Source: Entrophospora sp. SA101 (Eukaryota; Glomeromycota; Glomeromycetes; Entrophosporales; Entrophosporaceae). Taken from it: DNA of 64,000 nt. The first letter of the stretch is position 1, and the number at the start of each line of letters is the position of its first letter. This document shows, one piece after another, positions 4,392-59,742 of the stretch. The stretch is from contig CAUDNR010001558.1 in NCBI GenBank assembly GCA_958430865.1, forward strand, positions 23,784 to 87,783, in the 5' to 3' direction. The translations under genes and the position numbers were made by a program. Below the pieces are notes generated by a model. That model saw only the letters and a list, made by a program, of their open reading frames with translations. It was not told the origin of the DNA and did not search any database.

Positions 4392-5142
4392 TTAGCATAA
4401 CAAAATTTTTTCATGGATTTCAAATGGGTCATGAAATCCTTTACGAATGATCCAATACAATTCCGTCACATCGAATTCAATTATAGGATCACTTGAAAAT
4501 TTAGAAGAAAAATTATTTATTGCGTTTTTCGCCGACACCTTTTTATAAATAAAAATTTAACAAAAAAATTTTTTCAAAAATATCATTTATATTTGACTGT
4601 TTGCTTACCTCGTCTCTAAATTGACCTAAAGATAAATGTGGTTTAAATCCTTCGTTCCCGATTTTTATTAAATCGTCAAATTCAGGGAAACCAATTTTTA
4701 TTTCTTCATCAAAACGTTCATCACCATTACCATTATCGCTTCTACCAATCAGCCTATCTTCCAATTCATTTAATATATTTTCAGGGTGTGTTTCAGGTTC
4801 AAGCCAAACTGTAGCACTTTTTTTCCCGTGCATAAAATAATTTAAATTTACAAGTTTTACTTTAAATGGTTTGATTGTCGATGATGCCAGTTGCAAATTA
4901 TTTAATATATCTTTTGTCAAATTTTTCCCATTATTGTCTGGGAAATTTTGTTTTGGTGATGATGATGATGATGACGACGGTGGCGGTAGTAATGGTAAAG
5001 TAAAAGGATAAATTAGATTAATGTGTGGCATCCATCTTTTGAAATGTTTATCATGTTTTTGTCTAATTTCTTGAATCTTTGGCCATAAATGTTCTGGAGG
5101 AATAACACAAATTGCAGACTTGTAAGATTTTTGCAAGTTCAT
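4392..5142 (-). CDS. 2H phosphoesterase / LigT-like (2'-5' RNA ligase superfamily) protein
   Basis: Two exons, 5142-4609 and 4538-4392, are joined by a 70-nt intron with donor GTAAGC and acceptor AAAAAG, giving 226 aa. The N-terminus reads SAICVIPPEHLWPKIQEIR, as in LigT-like proteins. The two His-x-Ser/Thr-like motifs that define the 2H phosphoesterase fold are PHINLIYPF (residues about 40-48, Asn replacing the usual Thr/Ser) and PHLSLGQF (about 168-175). Between them lies a low-complexity Pro/Ser run followed by a core strand region. Exon 2 adds FDVTELYWIIRKGFHDPFEI, closing the fold. Family members hydrolyse or ligate 2',5' or cyclic phosphate bonds; the substrate here is unknown. The start is the first ATG, preceded by AT-rich DNA. 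No disruption is seen. Confidence 0.82.
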
Positions 5143-8100
5143 TGCAAAAGAAATTCTAGGGAGAAAATTATAATGATATATTTATTGTAGTTTAACCTTG
5201 TTTCAAAAGAAACGGATTTCCACACAGCTTAACAAAACCACGTGATTTTCAGCCTATAAAATTGGGTAACGTTATCAATTAATTTAATATTAAAATGTAA
5301 AAATGTATTTTTAAAAATACCTCGCACTTGACCAATTTACACAATAATACTATTGTGGCGCTGGACGTTTCTTTAATACTAAGACTCAAACTACTTATGG
5401 CGTAATGCTCAGTACTTTTTTTTTAATTAATTAATTGTTATTATTATTATTCTATATTTCTATAACTGGTTCAACAACCATTAGCGCGCCTAAAAATAAT
5501 CTGAAAATTCGTTAATACTTATCATCCATCATCCGTCCATTTATCAACTCATTCATGTACACCTCACGTAAAAAGCAACAATCACAATTACCATAATTTC
5601 TGTCCCGGTCAATTATAATCCATTATTTTCCGTATACACGTGACACTTATATAATCACGCACGTGAAAGGAGGGAGGCCAAAAGTCAAAAAAGGAGAAAT
5701 AATTGAAAAAGAAAAAAGAATTTTCTTTTTTAATTTTATCACAGATTTGTTTATTACACAATAATAAATTTTAAATTTGTACAAAAATTAATACAAGTTT
5801 TTTTTTGATCTAATTGCAAATCTTGCAAAATGGCTTGGCTAAGCATACTGGGGTTAGATATGTTGTGGTTGTCAGTGATTTGTGATCCAAGAGTTGTTCC
5901 TGGTGCGTGTGAATGAGCCAAAAGAAGAATGAGTGAATGAATAAATGAAATGAATGATTGATGAATGAATTAGATAAAGCTTTATACTATTGAGATCTGA
6001 AATGTATGCAGTGTAACCATAATAAACAGTATACAATATTGGATAGGAGGAGTAATGGCCCAGACACTCACTTCTTTCCATTATGTATTATTATTATTTT
6101 ATATTATTATTATTACCTTAGTTGTAAAGTTTCAGGCGTGAGAATAATAAAAGACGATGACAAACTTCTTGATTTATTAAATGCTCAAAATAGGTAATTT
6201 TGTAATCAATGAATCAATGTTAATTCAACAAATTAAATTGTTGCTGTTATTCCACAGATAAATCAAATAAAACCATAATTTAAACTAATTGGTATAAATG
6301 ATTATTAAGCTTAATTAATAAATAATTTTTAATTTGGAATAAATAATCGCGATGATATGGTGGCAGCGAACGGCAGCGGCGACGGCCAACCAACCATCTA
6401 ATTGTCCATCTATATGTACATCTATCTATGCATCTATTTAACTAACGATTTAATTGACTTTTTTAACTATGTATCGACAATATTTTGTTATTTAATATTG
6501 CAGATTTTTTTTTTAATAAGTAATTACTATATTACTATTATGATTTATTTGGTTACCCGCGCACATTCTTTTTTCCTGATTGGGATTTGTCGCATAATCA
6601 ATAATTTTATCTGATATTGTTTCCGAAATTTGAATTTCATAACTATCCTAAATTTGGTTTTTTGCCTTTAAAGAATCTTCTTTTTTTGCTTTTGTACTAA
6701 AAAAAACTTATAAGGAAAAAAATAAAAAACTGGTTGTTTGGTTGGTTGGTTGGATGTGTGTGTATGTGTGTCTTAGATCACTCGATTTTTATTATTGGTT
6801 TTGATTGTAGCCTATTTACGAGTTTGAATGGGTTAGTTTGTGTGAGGAGAGAAAGTGATCAAACATTATGCACATACACACACACACCACGCATGATATT
6901 CTGCATATTGTTCGTTTGTCTTTTTTCCTTTATCAGGTTACACCAAGTCAGCTTGTGACACGGAAAAATGTCTATTTTGTAAAATTTGTTCCGAGTTTCC
7001 ACAAATAAAGTTTCGCTAACTTTAAATGGTATATATTCTTTCCAGTAAAAAAGTAAAGAATTTCTTAACTAAACATTTATTTACTTATAATTCCGAAACA
7101 AAGATGTTCTTTGTTCGGAGTTCTTTTATTGTAAACCATAATAATATCTCACTCTCTTTCTTTTTCTCACTCTCTCACATGCTATAATAATAATCATCTC
7201 ATACTAATACTATTATTGATAATAATGAAACGTAATCAAACGATTTAAAATTCATAAATAATAACAATAATAATTATAATTATATATTGGGAGAGGAGAG
7301 AATGTATCATTCCACATGGTCATCAACCAATCATTGAAGCAGTATATTTACTTGTAATCAGGCAACAAAAATAACAACAAAAATAACAACAACAACAACA
7401 ACAACAACAATAATAAGCCCTTAGCCACTGTCATCATAACTGCCATTAATAACATAATCACATCGTATTAAAATATTCCTATTTTTGCTTAAGTTTTTTT
7501 TACCTCTCAAAAAAGTATGATGATAATAATAATAAACAAATAACAATATATTAATTTGTATGTGAATGCACGTATCTGTATGTGTATTATTTATATATAT
7601 TTAAATTGTCACAATGAAAAGAAAAAAAAAAAGAATAGATTGATTATAACATTGATTGCATCGTTTCACGTAGATCAACAAATAAATATGTAATATGTCG
7701 TGTAACTTGCATTTTGTGAAACAATCTTATTTTCTTTTTTTTTTTTTTGATTGATTTGATTTTTTTGGATTTGATTGATTTTGTGATTTATTATTATTTA
7801 TAGGTAGTAAGTGTGTGAAAGATGATAAAAGATTTTTTTGCCTGTGCATATTATAATCATCATCATCATAATTTTTTTTTTTGTGTACGTACGTAATTAA
7901 GGTTTAACGAGGGGAAAAGAAAAACTAGTGTCTAGAAATAATGCACAAACACGTTTTCATATTTACATGTTAGTCAATCACAATTTATTATTAATTATAT
8001 CATAATAACATCATCAACTAAAAAGGTTTTTTTTGATTTTTTTTTTTTTTTGATATAAAAACTCTTTATTGCCACCACACCAAAATATTCAAATAAAAAT

Positions 8101-30340: not shown

Positions 30341-33300
30341 TCAATAATCAGATGAATGAAATTTATTCATAAAATCATCTGGTATAGTTAATTCAATTTG
30401 TTTGGAATCTGGCATAGATAATTCAATTTGTTTAGATTCTATAGCATTGATTTATAATTTAGAATATATAATTTAAAATATCATAATTAAAATTAAATAT
30501 TTAAACAATGAATTAGATAATTACCATTATTATTACTAATAATTGTAACTTTATTGGAGTTTACAGGTTGAGGGAGATTTGTAAAATTCAATAATCTACT
30601 TGTATAAACAGCGTTTGGATGAACAGTTTCTGTAATTGTTGAAGGATTAAAGGATTTTTTATCTGCTTCCTCAAATATTTTTTTTATTTCTAATTCTTCA
30701 GAATAACTAGAAATATTAGATTTAATTGCATCATTCCAAAAAGTAATAATTTTTAAAATTTCATCTGCTGTTGGTCTTTTTTCAGGATCAGCATCCATGC
30801 ATCTGTATGCTAACTTAATATAACATTCTGGAGTATTATCTGAAAAACTAGGCCTTAAGCCAACACAGATCTTGATAGCAAGATCTATATCATATGGTTG
30901 ATCTTTGAATGGTTGTTGACATGTTGATGTTTCTGACATTAAGATCCCAAAGCTATAGATGTCAGATTTTTGTGTGTAAGGTTTCTTATTCAAAACCTCT
31001 GGTGCAACATATGGTAGTACTCCAAATATATCATTTTTACTTGATGATTCTTGATCAGCTGGGCCTGATAATCCTAAATCTGCAATTATTGCTTGGGATA
31101 AATGTTGAAAATATAAAATATTACCACTGTGAAGATCACAATGCATAAGCCTTTCTTGATGGAAGGTGTTTAAACTTGAGATAATATCATAAAGCATTTT
31201 AATTTTATCATTCCATCCTGTATAATTTGATTTTATATAATTTTTAAAGCTTCCACTGCTTGTATATCTTATTACTAAAACATATTCTTTTGTAATTGGA
31301 TCTTGTGAAATGCCATAAATATTAACAATACCCTTGTTATAAGGTCCTATAAATTTAATGTGGTTTTGAAGCTTTATAAAAATCAATAAAAAATTAATAT
31401 ATTATTTAAAAACCATTATTAATTAATTTTTAATTAATTATCAAATTATTTACCTCCTTTAAAAACTTATCAGAAAGATTTTGAGAGTTTTTAAACTTTT
31501 TTAATGCTACATTACCATTACGACGATAATATCTTTTATTATCATTAATATATCTAGGACCATTTGACCAATGACATATGTACACAGTTGCAAAACCACC
31601 TTCACCTATTCCTTCTTTAATTGAAAGTTGGTCATAAGGAATCCATTCAAGGTAATGATAGCTATCAAATCCTTTTGCTTCAAGCTGTGTATTTCTGATT
31701 ATTTCATCTAATTTGTCATTACCACTGCTAGTCCAACTTTGAGCTAACAATTTGGGATCACATGATTGACACCACTGGTAATTAGTATTATATCTTGCAC
31801 AAACAGAACAGGTTCCATATTCTCCTTTTCTTTCTTTAAACTCCTTAGTGTTATCTTATTATTTCATTATAAAAAATTCAAAATAAAATAGAATTATATA
31901 GGTATTCATTTAAAAGTTATAAAAAAGATAAATTAATAAATTATTTACCTTCAATTGTTATTATAATTGCAAAAAATAAATTTATTTAATTAGACAATGT
32001 GTTGTAAAAGTTATAATATAATATAATATAATATAATATAATATTTACCAGCTGTTATTATGAAGAAACAAGGAATATTTAATTAGATGATGTTATAAAA
32101 ATTTATTTTGTGTTGTAAAAGTTACTTACATGCTGGTTATTATGTTATTATAAAGAAAAATAAATTTATTAATTAATTGATGTTTTAATAAAAAATTATT
32201 TTGTGTTATGGAAGTTAATTTTATAATATGATACTTACTCCCTAGTTATATAAAAAAAATTTATTAAATGATGCTTTAATAAATTTATTTTTGTGTTAAT
32301 TTATAATATACTACTTACCAGCTAGTTATTATAAATAAATGAAAATAAACTTATTAATTAGATATAAAAATTATAAAAGTTGATTTATAATACAATATAA
32401 TACTTACCAGCTAGTTATTATAAAGAAATAAAAAATAAGTTTATTTAGTTGTTATAAAAGTTAAATCATAATATAATACTTACAATCTATGAAATAAAAA
32501 AAACAAATTAATTAATTATATGATGTTTATTTAGTTGTTATAAAAGTTAAATTATAATATAATACTCACAAACTGGTTATTATAAAGAAATAAAGAAACA
32601 AATTAATTAATTAGATAATGTTTATTTTGTGTTGTAAAAGTTAAATTATAATATAATACTTACAAACTGGTTATTATAAAGAAATAAAAAAACAAACTAA
32701 TTAATTAGATGATGTTTATTTTATGTTGTAAAAGTTAAATTATAACATAATACTTACAAACTGGTTATTATAAAGAAATAAAAAAAACAAATTAATTAAT
32801 TAGATGATGTTTATTTAGTTGTTATAAAAGTTAAATTATAATATAATACTTACTCCCTGGTTATTATAAAGAAATAAAAAAACAAATTAATTAATTAGAT
32901 GATGTTTATTTTGTGCTGTAAAAGTTAAATTATAATATAATACTTACAAACTGGTTATTATAAAGAAATAAAAAACAAATTAATTAATTAGGTGATGTTT
33001 ATTTTGTGCTGTAAAAGTTAAATTATAATATAATACTTACGAACTGGTTATTATAAAGAAATAAAAAACAAATTAATTAATTAGATGATGTTTATTTTGT
33101 GTTGTAAAAGTTAAATTATAATATAATACTTACGCTCTATGAAATAAAATAAAAATTATTTAATTAGATGATGTTTATTTTGTGTTGTAAAAGTTAAATC
33201 ATAATATAATACTTACCAACTGGTTATTAAAAAGAAATAAAAAAACAAATTATTTAATTAGATGATGTTTATTTTGTGTTGTAAAAGTTATAGTATAATA

Positions 33301-33597
33301 CTTACTTTCTATGAAATAAAAAAACCAAATTATTTAATTAGATGATGTTTATTTTGTGTTTTAAAAGTTAAATTATAATATAACACTTGCCCCCTGGTTA
33401 TTATAAAGAAATAAAAAAAGCAAATTATTTAATTAGATGATGTTTATTTTGCATTGTAAAGTATTTATTTACCTTTATAGAATTTAGCTAAGTATTATTT
33501 TATTATAAAGCAAAATATTAAATTATGATGTAAAAATACTATATACATATTTTTAAAATAGTTGTTTTCTGATTAAGAAAAAAATACCTTCATTCAT
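30341..33597 (-). CDS. TKL-like protein kinase with putative serial 3-nt microexons
   Basis: Minus-strand model: 33597-33588 (ATGAATGAAG), 33487-33473 (15 nt), sixteen 3-nt exons between 33393 and 32049, then 31854-31454, 31371-30525 and 30438-30341. It totals 472 aa if every microexon is used. The exon at 31854 opens NTKEFKERKGEYGTCSVC and has a second Cys pair (WCQSCDP), a zinc-ribbon-like module. Kinase motifs are the Gly loop GIGEGGFATVY, the lysine in NVALKKFK, catalytic MHCDLHSGNIL, IADLGLSG (DLG in place of DFG) and YVAPEVL. The tail contains KQIELSMPDSKQIELTIPDD. Such kinases form very large families in mycorrhizal fungi and presumably signal in the cytosol. The 3' exons are firm. The microexon part is inferred from splice signals and frame only; joining the 15-nt exon straight to 31854 is also in frame. 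Confidence 0.8.
31940..33480 (-). repeat. tandem array of AG-NNN-GT units (microexon array)
   Basis: Seventeen units spaced 76-109 bp apart (mostly 83-96). Minus-strand islands between acceptor and donor: 33391-33393 GGG, 33306-33308 AAA, 33217-33219 TTG, 33134-33136 AGC, 33041-33043 TTC, 32948-32950 TTT, 32854-32856 GGA, 32758-32760 TTT, 32664-32666 TTT, 32570-32572 TTT, 32484-32486 ATT, 32408-32410 CTG, 32319-32321 CTG, 32239-32241 GGA, 32130-32132 CAT, 32049-32051 CTG. A seventeenth unit near 31948 has AG directly against GT. Acceptors are mostly ATAACCAG, CTAG or TTTCATAG; donors mostly GTAAGTAT. Flanks are near-identical among neighbours, but the islands are not. Confidence 0.95.
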
Positions 33598-33989
33598 TTT
33601 AGGAGCAAGAGTTTCCCGGGACTGGTGTGTTTATTCCTATTTAAGAAATTGTATTGTATTTGTATGTGATTGACAAATAATAATTATTATTGTTTGATGC
33701 ATAAATTTTTTATTTATATATAGTGCAAGGCACCTAATCACGCAACTTACTACACCTCAACGACAGATTTGAGAAAAAATTTCCCAATCAAAAATGCAAA
33801 AATTTTCAATCACGTGATTTTCAGTAAGTTTTTAGGTCACGGGATTTATTGACGATCAATCCATAAATGGTATAAATCGGCAATAATACCAACTTTTTAT
33901 TTTCAGGATTCACAAATTCCCGTTCCAAAATTAAAAATAAAAATAAAATGCACGGAGCAAAAAAAAAAATAGTGTACGGAATCTGGTTA
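33598..33989. other. kinase upstream region
   Basis: Presumed promoter and 5' UTR of the minus-strand kinase gene. CACGTGATTTTC near 33811 and GGTCACGGGATT near 33834 are similar short phrases. No gene. Confidence 0.4.
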
Positions 33990-52892: not shown

Positions 52893-53208
52893 CAATTAAT
52901 AATAAACACAATTCACAATTATGGTGAATCAAGTAATGTGCCGAATGATGTAATTTTAAAGGTCCTTGAAAATGAAAAAGAAGCAGTAAATAAAGTCAAA
53001 GATTCTTTAGGAAAACTTGGACAAACTTTTTAACAAATACATCGATGAATCTGATAATATCTCTGAAACATACGAATATGAAGTAGAAGAGGTGAGAATT
53101 TAACAAGCTTTTTGATTATTGATATGTTTTTCAACTAATTTAATTCCTAAATATTACAACAAAAGAACAATAATGGTTTTGGAACAACTGATAACACAAC
53201 AACAACTG

Positions 53209-53245
<37 letters not shown>

Positions 53246-53731
53246 CTTCATTGATGATACTGATGATATACCTACCGTTCTTACCACTACAACCACAGAA
53301 AGAAAAGGAGGAGTGAAATACCGTCGTAAGACATTTAAAGAAAATATTCAGGGAATTACTAAGCCGGCAATTAGGAGGTTAACACGAAGAGGTGGTGTTA
53401 GGCGTATTTCTGAGCTTGTTTATGAGGAGACTCGAAGTGTATTAAAGATGTTTCTTGAAAACGTGATAAGAGTATGTAATGATAATAAATGTAAATAATA
53501 GTAATAGTAATAGTAATTTACTTTTCTACTATGAATATCATCCTTTAGGACACTGTGACGTACACAGAATATGCAAGATGCAAGACAGTCACGTCTTTAG
53601 ATGTCGGTTAGTTATCATTCAAATGCTATTTTTTAATGTTTTTTTGAAAAATTTTTTTTTTAATTTACTATCTATATATAGTATACGCGCTTAAGAGACA
53701 AGGAGTAACTCTCTATGGGTTTAATAGATAA
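52893..53731 (+). CDS. divergent histone H4 variant with long N-terminal extension
   Basis: Exons: 52893-53091 (one frame break inside), 53166-53471, 53549-53606, 53682-53731. The last three give a complete H4 fold: [72 protein letters not shown]. In place of the standard H4 tail there is an Asn/Thr-rich linker with a ten-residue Asn run. Upstream is a charged helical region ([20 protein letters not shown], then [18 protein letters not shown]). The phase between 53091 and 53166 matches, so the extension belongs to the same message. The upstream exon reaches TAA after QTF at a T-run (about 53028-53033); an alternative acceptor at 53010 avoids this. Several substitutions at sites normally invariant in H4 (for example Glu in RISELVYEE) suggest a specialised variant. 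The start codon was not fixed. Confidence 0.8.
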
Positions 53732-57342: not shown

Positions 57343-58524
57343 TAAAATATTATGACGCGTTATTTATAAAAGGAATTGATTGACAATAATCTGCTAATAA
57401 TACCATTTACGTTGTGAAATCCTTTTGGTTTTCGATATAAATATATAAAAAAAAAATTTATTATGTTTTACTAAGGGATTCACAAACTATTTTTAGCTTT
57501 ACAAGGTTTTTTTGAAATCTTCTAATAACAAAGAACTTTTTTTATTACCGTATGATTGGATACATGCTGATTATGACTTTATGTTAATTTCGCCTTATGA
57601 AAACTAGTTTTTGGTGTGTATGAGGCGAGTGACTTAAAAGAAGATATTGCTGATAATTATATAAAATCACACGGCCTAGACTCTCTACCCTTAAATAAGT
57701 AATAGATTTAAAACTTATCATGATATTTGGTAATATTTCATAATCTTAATAATATTATTACGTAAGAGTTTCAAAAAAAAAATATCAATGATCTAATATT
57801 AAATCGCTACTAACGTTACACGCCATTTTCAAAAAAATTAAAAATTTCGATACAAGATATAACACTGATTGTATATTATCGGCTACCGTTATCGCACTCC
57901 AATCTCTCGCTTGCGCAGAACTTTCATGTGATTGAATTAGATAGTTAAACTTAATTAATTCATAGATAATAAATAATTCTAAAAATATTCCTATATTTAC
58001 AGCTCATATTAATATAATGGCCCGCAAAGATCAAAATATGCAGCGATTGATCGCTAGCGGAAAAACACACACGTATACATATTAATATCAATGATAAATA
58101 TAGTAAATATGTTTCAAATCGTATAGTACAAGTAAAGAGATTAGATCCTACTAAAAAAATTTACGGCTATTTTAAGCAATCATAAAAAATACTCTACTCT
58201 CTAAACCTATTTTTTTTTTTCCTTCAAAAAAACCATTCTTATTAAATAATTTCCAAAGAAACATCACTTAAACTTTTAAAACGATAAAAAAACAAAGGCA
58301 GATCGCAAAGAATAAATAATTACCAAGAAAATCGTCAATGTATTAAAAATAGATATTAAAATACGACCCCTACAACTGTATAGAATATATGCGCCAGATG
58401 TATGATATAAATACACCATTACAATTTTTGTTTTATTTTTCCCTGAATTTTTTTTTTTTTTTTCAATAATTAATTCCTGTTTTTAAGAAATAATTATCAA
58501 TATTTAAAAATTTACATAGAACAT
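57343..58524. other. spacer upstream of HMG gene
   Basis: No gene recognised. T-runs at about 58209 and 58447. Probably holds the HMG-box gene promoter and 5' UTR near its right end. Confidence 0.4.
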
Positions 58525-59742
58525 ATGAATTCTGAAATATTCCTATATATTAATGAAGCACAACTTGATGATGATGAGACTCACCTTCTTTCCAACCCTC
58601 CTTGTGAACTCTATACACAAATCACGGAATTTATTTCGCCTAATCCTAATAATATCAATCATTTAGGTACCCCAAAACCTCAAAACCCTTATATATTATA
58701 CCGTAAAAACAATGTTGTAAAACATAAATCACTTGGGAGTAAAAAGGATTGGGAAACTCTTTCAAAGGAAACTGGTGGTTCCTGGAAAAATGAATCGAAC
58801 AAAGTAAGAAGTTACTTTAAAGTGTTGGCAAAACTAGCTTTTGAAAAACATAAATCAATCTATTACAGTAAATGCAACAATCCATTACCAAATGACTATA
58901 TTTTCATTACACAACAACCAGTACAACAACCACAAAAAAAAATTTCTTATAATAACGATTGTGCAGTCTCAGTTTCATCACATTCTCCATACACTCCTTT
59001 TCCTTACGCAAATAATAGTCCAAGCTCAACATCTTCTACGTTTTTTAATTCACAATCTACTTCGTCTCATTTTATGGATCAACATCTACAAAATCAAGAC
59101 AATAAGAATAACGATGATGTGGCCTTAAAATTACCTTATCCGCACCATTCTTCTTTTTCTTGTACAAATAATAATCCAAGCTCACCATCTTCTACGTTTT
59201 TTAATTCACATTCTACTTCGTCTCATTTTATGGGTCAACATCTACAAAATCAAGACAATAAGAATAACGATAGTGTGGCCTTAAAATTACCTTATCCGCA
59301 CCATTCTTCTTTTTCTTACACAAACAATAATCCAAGCTCGCTATCTTCTACGTTTTTTAATTCACATTCCACTTCGTCTCATTTTATGGTCCAACATCTA
59401 CAAAACCAAGATAATAAGAATAACGATTGTGTGGCCTTAAAATCACCTTATCCGCACCATTCTTGTACAAATGATAATCCAAGCTCACTATCTTCTACGT
59501 TTTCCCCCAAATGTTCTGCTTTCTCTGATTTTAATCCTCTCCCTGTCAATAATAACAACATTATAAATAAGACTGATGATGTCCAACCCACCCGATTTAA
59601 CGCTAGTGCAAATTTAAATAGTGAAAATATTCTAGAAAGGTTTCAACAATTTCTGCAAGATGAACAAACTGACAAACCATCAAGTGGCGTGGATTATTGG
59701 CATTTATTGGACGTTTTTTGTCGCAGGATGGATAATAAATAA
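58525..59742 (+). CDS. HMG-box (MATA_HMG type) protein with internal repeats
   Basis: A single exon of 405 codons plus stop. Residues about 48-115 form an HMG box: TPKPQNPYILYRKNNVVKH, then DWETLSKETGGSWKNES and VRSYFKVLAKLAFEKHKSIY. The minor-groove Asn-Pro-Tyr/Phe and the later Trp and Tyr match the MATA-type boxes that are greatly expanded in mycorrhizal fungi. It is therefore a nuclear DNA-binding protein, possibly but not necessarily a mating regulator. Residues about 150-335 hold over three copies of a 52-aa (156-bp) unit containing HFMxQHLQNQDNKNND and VALKLPYPHHSS. The C-terminus (ENILERFQQFLQDEQTD, DYWHLLDVFCRRMDNK) is helical and charged. The start is the first ATG after a T-rich 5' region. 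No disruption. Confidence 0.88.
   Translation: MNSEIFLYINEAQLDDDETHLLSNPPCELYTQITEFISPNPNNINHLGTPKPQNPYILYRKNNVVKHKSLGSKKDWETLSKETGGSWKNESNKVRSYFKVLAKLAFEKHKSIYYSKCNNPLPNDYIFITQQPVQQPQKKISYNNDCAVSVSSHSPYTPFPYANNSPSSTSSTFFNSQSTSSHFMDQHLQNQDNKNNDDVALKLPYPHHSSFSCTNNNPSSPSSTFFNSHSTSSHFMGQHLQNQDNKNNDSVALKLPYPHHSSFSYTNNNPSSLSSTFFNSHSTSSHFMVQHLQNQDNKNNDCVALKSPYPHHSCTNDNPSSLSSTFSPKCSAFSDFNPLPVNNNNIINKTDDVQPTRFNASANLNSENILERFQQFLQDEQTDKPSSGVDYWHLLDVFCRRMDNK
58990..59510 (+). repeat. 156-bp coding tandem repeat (52 aa unit)
   Basis: AACATCTACAAAA(T/C)CAAGA recurs at 59081, 59237 and 59393, a period of exactly 156 bp, in frame. Copies differ by few bases, mostly changing single residues (HFMD, HFMG, HFMV). 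A partial unit begins at about 58990 and a truncated one ends at about 59510. Confidence 0.93.

Follow-up and report, generated by a model that had tools for sequence, protein, structure and literature searches.

A tandem series of putative one-codon exons near the N-terminus of a protein kinase gene in the fungus Entrophospora sp. SA101

Introduction

Long series of codon-sized exons have a reported fungal precedent in the NACHT-ANK (nank) genes of the truffle Tuber melanosporum, which are described, in passages that cite Iotti et al. 2012, as containing codon-sized or 3-bp microexons that are alternatively spliced (PMC10197012, PMC9815663, PMC4986451, PMC3689799). As presented there, the family is expanded, and its 3-bp exons, which number in the tens, lie in a region believed to vary for recognition. 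A regulator gene of Trichoderma virens, Xlr2, contains a microexon switch (PMC11121469), and the abstract of that report states that functional microexons were previously undescribed in filamentous fungi; as described, it is a functional microexon in a filamentous fungus but a single one, with no tandem one-codon series. Here we describe a 64,000-nucleotide (nt) stretch of contig CAUDNR010001558.1 of the glomeromycete Entrophospora sp. SA101, referred to below as the window, in which a gene for a protein kinase carries sixteen consecutive triplets, each flanked by splice-site motifs, on the minus strand. A first-pass annotation had read these triplets as candidate exons and had taken a tandem one-codon series to be undescribed in fungi, a claim that has to give way to the reported truffle genes.

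The Entrophospora arrays are like the nank genes in that many tandem 3-bp exons occur in an expanded fungal gene family, although here their status as exons rests on a stop-codon test, and they differ from the truffle genes in gene family, in position within the protein, in phylum and in the evidence for serial inclusion. The truffle host gene, in the passages cited above, encodes a STAND/NLR receptor, whereas here the host is a kinase, and the joined protein of the window gene has no NACHT or ankyrin match in Pfam. The nank microexons are said to diversify a C-terminal recognition domain, whereas the window array is N-terminal and only one of the arrays described below (L019) looks C-terminal; and alternative splicing is reported for the truffle, whereas the Entrophospora sequences, in another phylum, carry a signature of full serial inclusion. 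Among the papers listed by full-text searches of the open-licence part of PubMed Central, none reports arrays of this kind in Glomeromycotina.

Other systems offer partial parallels. The micro-exon genes of schistosomes, which encode secreted parasite proteins, also string together many small symmetric exons, but most of these exceed one codon, whereas here every exon would be exactly one codon long and the product is a kinase. In recursive splicing a long intervening stretch is removed stepwise, with a donor recreated at each junction, and the classical ratchet points leave no exon; here each step would leave one codon. Introners are near-identical introns that occur in large numbers within one genome, scattered between unrelated exons, whereas in Entrophospora each intron is multiplied along with its codon, in tandem.

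The array in the window gene

The minus strand between 31940 and 33600 holds a two-exon start that supplies 25 nt of coding sequence, then sixteen units of the form AG-NNN-GT (or GC), and then the kinase exon (Table 1). All sixteen of the three-base islands that the first-pass annotation had described are present, each with AG before it and GT or GC after it, the odd donors being one each of GCAAGT, GTGAGT and GTAAAT, and the spacing of three is kept throughout. Exon 1, exon 2 and the kinase exon do share phase 1, as that annotation had claimed. Inclusion of every island yields GEIELLWIFFYSAGTSD, and on such a reading the window protein would begin MNEAKFYK-GEIELLWIFFYSAGTS-DNTKEFKERK. A strict form of the motif, YAGNNNGTRAGT, is found 16 times in the window against 0.73 expected by chance, with none of 100 shuffles reaching 16, and 14 of these copies fall inside the array. 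Tandem Repeats Finder reports a 94-base unit in 10.6 copies that covers most of the array (32491-33460).

We propose that all sixteen islands are constitutive exons of one codon each, lying close to the N-terminus of a kinase with a cysteine motif, and would put the probability of this at roughly 0.86. Its position, phase, 3-nt spacing, serial avoidance of stop codons and variability are all properties that can be read from the DNA.

Table 1. Features of the kinase gene and its array, in the direction of transcription (positions are those of the window)
Feature	Position	Strand	Basis
Upstream region conserved among paralogs, inferred promoter	33598..33737	-	57-81% identity to the window in 19 other loci
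Exon 1, ATGAATGAAG, with start codon; ends in phase 1	33588..33597	-	recurs in many array loci at ≤2 mismatches
Exon 2, 15 nt, CTAAATTCTATAAAG; keeps phase 1	33473..33487	-	genome-wide matches with splice sites
Island 1, GGG; donor GCAAGT	33391..33393	-	
Island 2, AAA	33306..33308	-	
Island 3, TTG	33217..33219	-	
Island 4, AGC	33134..33136	-	
Island 5, TTC	33041..33043	-	
Island 6, TTT	32948..32950	-	
Island 7, GGA	32854..32856	-	
Island 8, TTT	32758..32760	-	
Island 9, TTT	32664..32666	-	
Island 10, TTT; donor GTGAGT	32570..32572	-	
Island 11, ATT	32484..32486	-	
Island 12, CTG; first of the conserved 3' series	32408..32410	-	
Island 13, CTG	32319..32321	-	
Island 14, GGA; GGA in 18/23 arrays ending NNN-CAT-NNN	32239..32241	-	
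Island 15, CAT; landmark of the 3' series	32130..32132	-	
Island 16, CTG; donor GTAAAT; CTG in 21/23 arrays ending NNN-CAT-NNN	32049..32051	-	
Kinase exon; a CxxC...WCxxC cysteine motif (by eye) followed by the first part of the protein kinase domain	31454..31854	-	tblastn, Pfam
Last exon; completes the kinase domain and runs to the stop codon, assuming no further intron	30493..31371	-	open frame, Pfam

A family of arrays in the genome

The whole genome (101 Mb in 2123 contigs) was searched with patterns that fix the spacing and leave the island letters free. The unit pattern matched at 411 places (≤3 mismatches), a second variant of the unit at 379 (≤2 mismatches) and an acceptor-side pattern at 535 (≤2 mismatches), against 0, 0 and 1 for the corresponding reversed patterns; the three sets overlap and point to at least 535 such sites, and most of the listed unit sites are clustered. 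Exon 2 together with its splice sites was found at 61 places (≤3 mismatches; 2 for the reversed control), a few of which look unrelated. The unit pattern had no match in viral and prokaryote contigs.

Forty-eight stretches, here given L numbers, were fetched by coordinates, all of them from approximately the first 100 places of each list, and thus sample a part of all the arrays. With the window they provide 43 arrays of at least three units and 552 islands, at 3-46 islands per array, in a count that takes in L019 and the doubtful L041. The kinase arrays have from 3 to 30 islands, some of them being cut by contig ends, and the array of 46 is that of L019, in a different gene. At least one of exon 1, exon 2 and the kinase exon could be identified in 39 of the 44 loci checked for them (23 of 24 in the first set and 16 of 20 in the later one). 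When the kinase exon was used as a tblastn query (E≤1e-3), 15 further loci of the first set were matched. In 13 of these the match lies immediately 3' of an array and on its strand; ten of the 13 have a single match of 129-132 residues with 75-86% identity, the others being in pieces or cut. In L022 and L029 the match lies on the strand opposite to the array.

We note that contig ends lie inside or near the arrays of L009, L012, L020, L044, L051 and L055. The assembly probably breaks at arrays, so the array numbers would be lower bounds. Locus L016 holds two arrays, at 2229-2841 and 5069-7624 in the oriented stretch, with a run of N just before the second. The first contains a dead unit that has lost its acceptor and ends CTG-GGA-CAT-CTG, and the second is a 30-unit array that precedes the kinase exon.

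Stop codons at island junctions

In phase 1 each junction codon is made of the third base of one island and the first two of the next, and the frequency of stops among these codons was compared with that in within-array shuffles. The first test used 19 arrays tied to phase-1 exons, and 19 of the 20 loci fetched later served for replication, with phase 1 assumed for L047, L052 and L053, in which no flanking exon was recognised. Left out of the first test were an AGT unit of L035, L016.0, L015, L020, L025 and L019; outside the counts stand L010, L011, L017, L018 and L027, the single-unit L028, L001-L008 (which overlap later loci) and, from the held-out set, L041. Pairs of islands more than 135 nt apart were also left out of the counts of stops; some such introns carry inserts.

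Adjacent junctions in the first 19 arrays contain no stop among 260, against 15.9 (standard deviation 2.9) in the shuffles, none of 2000 of which is as low. Restoring the doubtful units (the L035 unit, L016.0, L015, L020 and L025) gives one stop in 272 against 16.6 expected. The held-out loci have one stop in 178 junctions against 5.8 expected (15 of 2000 shuffles as low), and all arrays taken together, with duplicates removed, have two in 430 against 24.1 (none of 4000 shuffles as low). In this deduplicated set TAG was seen once against 16.9 expected, TAA not at all against 3.8, and TGA once against 3.5, while TAT (31 against 21.6) and TGG (23 against 20.9) are not depleted. The same neighbours taken in reversed order give 34 stops against 26.0 expected, and deduplicated islands two apart give 15 against 17.7, which is chance. 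Because adjacent junctions avoid stops while the reversed order and islands two apart do not, it is very probable that translation runs through all of the islands in series, and the proposal of the first-pass annotation that they act as translated 3-nt exons gains support. The pattern of stops, as read from the DNA, is the signature of past selection.

Other phases were tried for the kinase arrays and rejected: phase 2 contains 31 stops in 260 junctions against 31.9 expected, the chance level, and phase 0 contains five stop triplets in 284 against a mean of 9.0 when letters are shuffled by position.

A different gene, at 3243-7666 of L019 in minus-strand orientation (contig C262), carries the 46-island array, apparently in phase 0 and C-terminal; its upstream exon seemingly ends ..LDLAYNNNNK, and its last exon would read GVRRLPIIHI-stop. 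None of its 46 islands is a stop in phase 0, where a position shuffle leads to an expectation of 3.05 and gives zero in 2% of cases; the counts in phases 1 and 2 (4/44 and 7/44) stand at the chance level. At the level of sequence L019 is thus an independent check of the coding signature.

Spacing and splice sites

Spacing was scored in the arrays of the first 24 loci, with an AG at three counted whenever present, even where another AG is near. With anchoring on the donor and the downstream intron, an upstream AG stands at exactly 3 nt in 298 of 304 units, so that the constancy of spacing claimed for the window extends across the genome; the six exceptions are one probable false anchor, one 2-nt-like island and units with a lost or shifted AG. 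Anchored on the acceptor, 259 of 275 units have a donor-like motif at exactly three, and the other 16 have a degenerate donor (ATAAGT, GTAGGT, GTAACT etc.) or a contig end, with the same spacing. The introns between islands have a median length of 91 nt (5-95% range 77-105), and their lengths modulo three (148/187/160) show no bias towards multiples of three. Of 495 introns, 381 contain a branch-like CTRAY motif, and the median distance from the last such motif to the 3' site is 35 nt. The array introns thus look spliceosomal in their GT/GC-AG ends, their branch-like motif and lengths that are independent of frame. The splice dinucleotides of the 3' tail show no difference in 1848 comparisons, a result that holds partly by construction since the units were found through these dinucleotides; the anchoring on one side at a time, given above, is the better evidence. 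Longer introns with apparent inserted elements, in which the codon series is kept in frame, are seen at approximately 4690-4907 of L012, 945-1204 of L034 and 2103-2363 of L035 (all oriented).

Serial or optional inclusion, and other readings

Several observations weigh against constitutive one-codon exons. The chief one comes from the held-out loci alone, in which islands two apart produce two stops in 155 against 5.2 expected, with 137 of 2000 shuffles as low. Two adjacent junctions do produce stops (in L035 and L056), the broken copy L016.0 would have one across its dead unit, and in L034 the omission of the two units with degenerate splice sites would create another. Units with ATAAGT or other weak donors may be skipped, and the donor-anchored exception in L031 resembles an island of 2 nt. 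Codons other than stops also depart from expectation (TCA 2 against 7.9, GCA 2 against 9.3, CCT 2 against 7.6, ACA 22 against 7.6), probably as a consequence of the 3' series GGA-CAT-CTG that is common to many arrays. Two public protein searches revealed no protein with recognisable island residues in the inspected part of the best 120 of 1593 and the best 120 of 198 matches; the first 120 were all scanned for the cysteine motif, with sequences viewed in part, and the second were viewed at their starts. A search of the genome at ≤3 mismatches found no already joined exon 1/exon 2 or tail/kinase junction. Moreover, U1 and the machinery of the 3' site are not expected to occupy a 3-nt exon simultaneously, so reliable inclusion calls for a strict order of splicing.

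The rival that fares best, and the one put forward in the first-pass annotation, treats each island as an optional cassette exon, with subset splicing producing a large repertoire of isoforms. Every island is three bases long, and any subset therefore keeps the frame; the truffle genes provide a reported precedent; and the low count for islands two apart in the held-out loci would fit as well. The window array has no non-adjacent pair of islands that makes a stop, which leaves room for optional use in this particular gene. Routine use of subsets would, however, need skipped junctions to be protected, and over all arrays these carry stops at about the rate of chance, with 15 in 384 at lag 2 (17.6 expected), 16 in 340 at lag 3 (15.1) and 18 in 303 at lag 4 (12.9) and no avoidance at any of them. 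Of the 41 phase-1 arrays, 18 contain one or more pairs of non-adjacent islands whose joining would create a stop, and constraint is seen for full serial inclusion only. As skipped junctions are unprotected, the arrays are most simply read as using every island, in order. Selection appears to give no protection to a free choice of subsets, and the huge number of isoforms once envisaged is unsupported. We consider optional cassettes unlikely, and the model was rejected as a general rule because avoidance in the lag test is confined to adjacent islands.

A good deal less probable is the idea that the units are introners that have split an older continuous exon at every codon, leaving the islands as remnants of ordinary coding sequence. 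The near-identical introns separated by codons would fit such an origin, as would the translation of most arrays without stops in phase 1, but the kinase paralogs differ in unit number (again with some arrays cut by contig ends), a duplicated multi-unit block, described below, points to tandem duplication of intron-plus-codon units, and the failure to find joined junctions at ≤3 mismatches counts against introners too. Weakest, and rejected, is the notion of an intronic satellite removed as one intron, with islands that never enter mRNA and a spacing that is a by-product of the repeat unit, since, even though the units are tandem repeats and splice-like motifs arise easily in AT-rich DNA, a non-coding repeat offers no reason for stop avoidance that is directional (2/430 against 24.1, and 34 against 26.0 in reverse), phase-specific and neighbour-specific, and the islands are the most variable positions and yet keep the 3-nt spacing in all 275 acceptor-anchored units.

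Variation among islands and evolution of the units

Where two units have identical flanks of 20 nt on each side, their islands differ in 86% of cases (622 pairs from 547 units), and 41 of the 64 possible triplets occur as islands in these 547 units. Most other three-base positions differ in approximately 0-25% of identical-flank pairs, and two stretches outside the island are also variable, at approximately -28 to -26 (31-60%) and +19 to +21 (39-46%). The contrast drawn in the first-pass annotation between varying islands and near-constant surroundings therefore stands for the islands and requires modification for their surroundings, as the window array mixes two acceptor types, ..ATAACCAG and ..TTTCATAG, and the repeat is not one uniform unit. 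Of 14 pairs of related arrays that were aligned, 13 show more differences in the islands (0.09-0.67 per site) than in the flanks (0.04-0.11), and the remaining pair is identical; these pairs share arrays and are not independent.

Variation is not spread evenly along the arrays. The 3' islands GGA-CAT-CTG diverge by 4.1% against 10.5% in the introns between them in 20 arrays from which L014 and L015 were dropped, and by 10.3% against 11.4% when these two are included. From these sequences the 5' part of the array looks diversified and the 3' part constrained. In L033 a block of four units recurs with altered islands, AAT-ACC-CTG-CTG and AAT-ACT-CTG-ATG, the spacings being 95, 104 and 105 in both copies, and this duplicated block points to duplication and exchange of units.

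If the islands are constitutive exons, the spliceosome would remove the approximately 91-nt introns in turn, each step adding one codon and recreating the next donor in a ratchet-like manner. The near-identical introns could at the same time act as recombination tracts, through which arrays and genes would gain, lose or exchange codons or blocks of codons with the frame intact, and each kinase paralog would acquire its own variable peptide beside the cysteine motif. Since the islands are hypervariable between paralogs and the introns conserved, the diversity would be written mainly in DNA, and it perhaps arises by the shuffling of codon cassettes. A larger proposal, which we hold tentatively and at somewhat under even odds, is that the genome maintains a library of single-codon cassettes, in which intron-plus-codon units recombine through their near-identical introns, dozens of kinases gain, lose or swap single residues in frame, and ratchet-like splicing reads all codons in order. 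As a guess from the pattern of variability, the peptide probably serves in variable recognition, such as that of self or of a partner.

The kinase and other features of the window

The joined window protein matches the protein kinase families PF07714/PF00069 of Pfam at residues 102-365, with a match to PF03109 just under the cut-off. Among the best 120 matches in the protein set, named proteins are 36-45% identical to the kinase and come mostly from Gigaspora, Diversispora and Rhizophagus, and unnamed reading frames reach 87% identity; the kinase exon had no match in viral contigs. An exact ATGAATGAAGGTATT with at least 140 nt of upstream sequence is present at 20 loci, the window included. 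A TATA-like stretch lies approximately 125 nt before the ATG of the window gene, and a TATA-like match is found in only five of the 20 loci.

Elsewhere in the window, a single reading frame at 58474-59742, which we take to resemble an HMG-box mating-type-like protein, contains a tandem repeat of 156 bp that stays in frame, with 3.2 copies between 59009 and 59503. In the frame at 53151-53498, presumably that of a histone H4-like protein, a poly-Asn/Thr stretch replaces the customary N-terminal tail, and several residues of the core are altered. A 199-aa protein encoded in the window matches Entrophospora sp. SA101 at 91% over 44% of its length and Gigaspora margarita, Cetraspora pellucida and Dentiscutata heterogama at 56-58%, in keeping with an arbuscular mycorrhizal fungus of the Glomeromycotina, to which Entrophospora belongs. 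Neither Rfam nor tRNA scanning gave a match in the 64-kb window.

Implications

The stop-codon lag test is a cheap means of separating serial from optional microexons in any genome, that of the truffle included. If the serial reading is confirmed by RNA, the spliceosome of Entrophospora would be including 3-nt exons faithfully over long series, a behaviour difficult to reconcile with exon definition, and standard gene prediction would be likely to miss or truncate dozens of its kinase genes. Such confirmation would also reveal a route by which hypervariable peptides evolve, with introns acting as the tracts through which single codons recombine.

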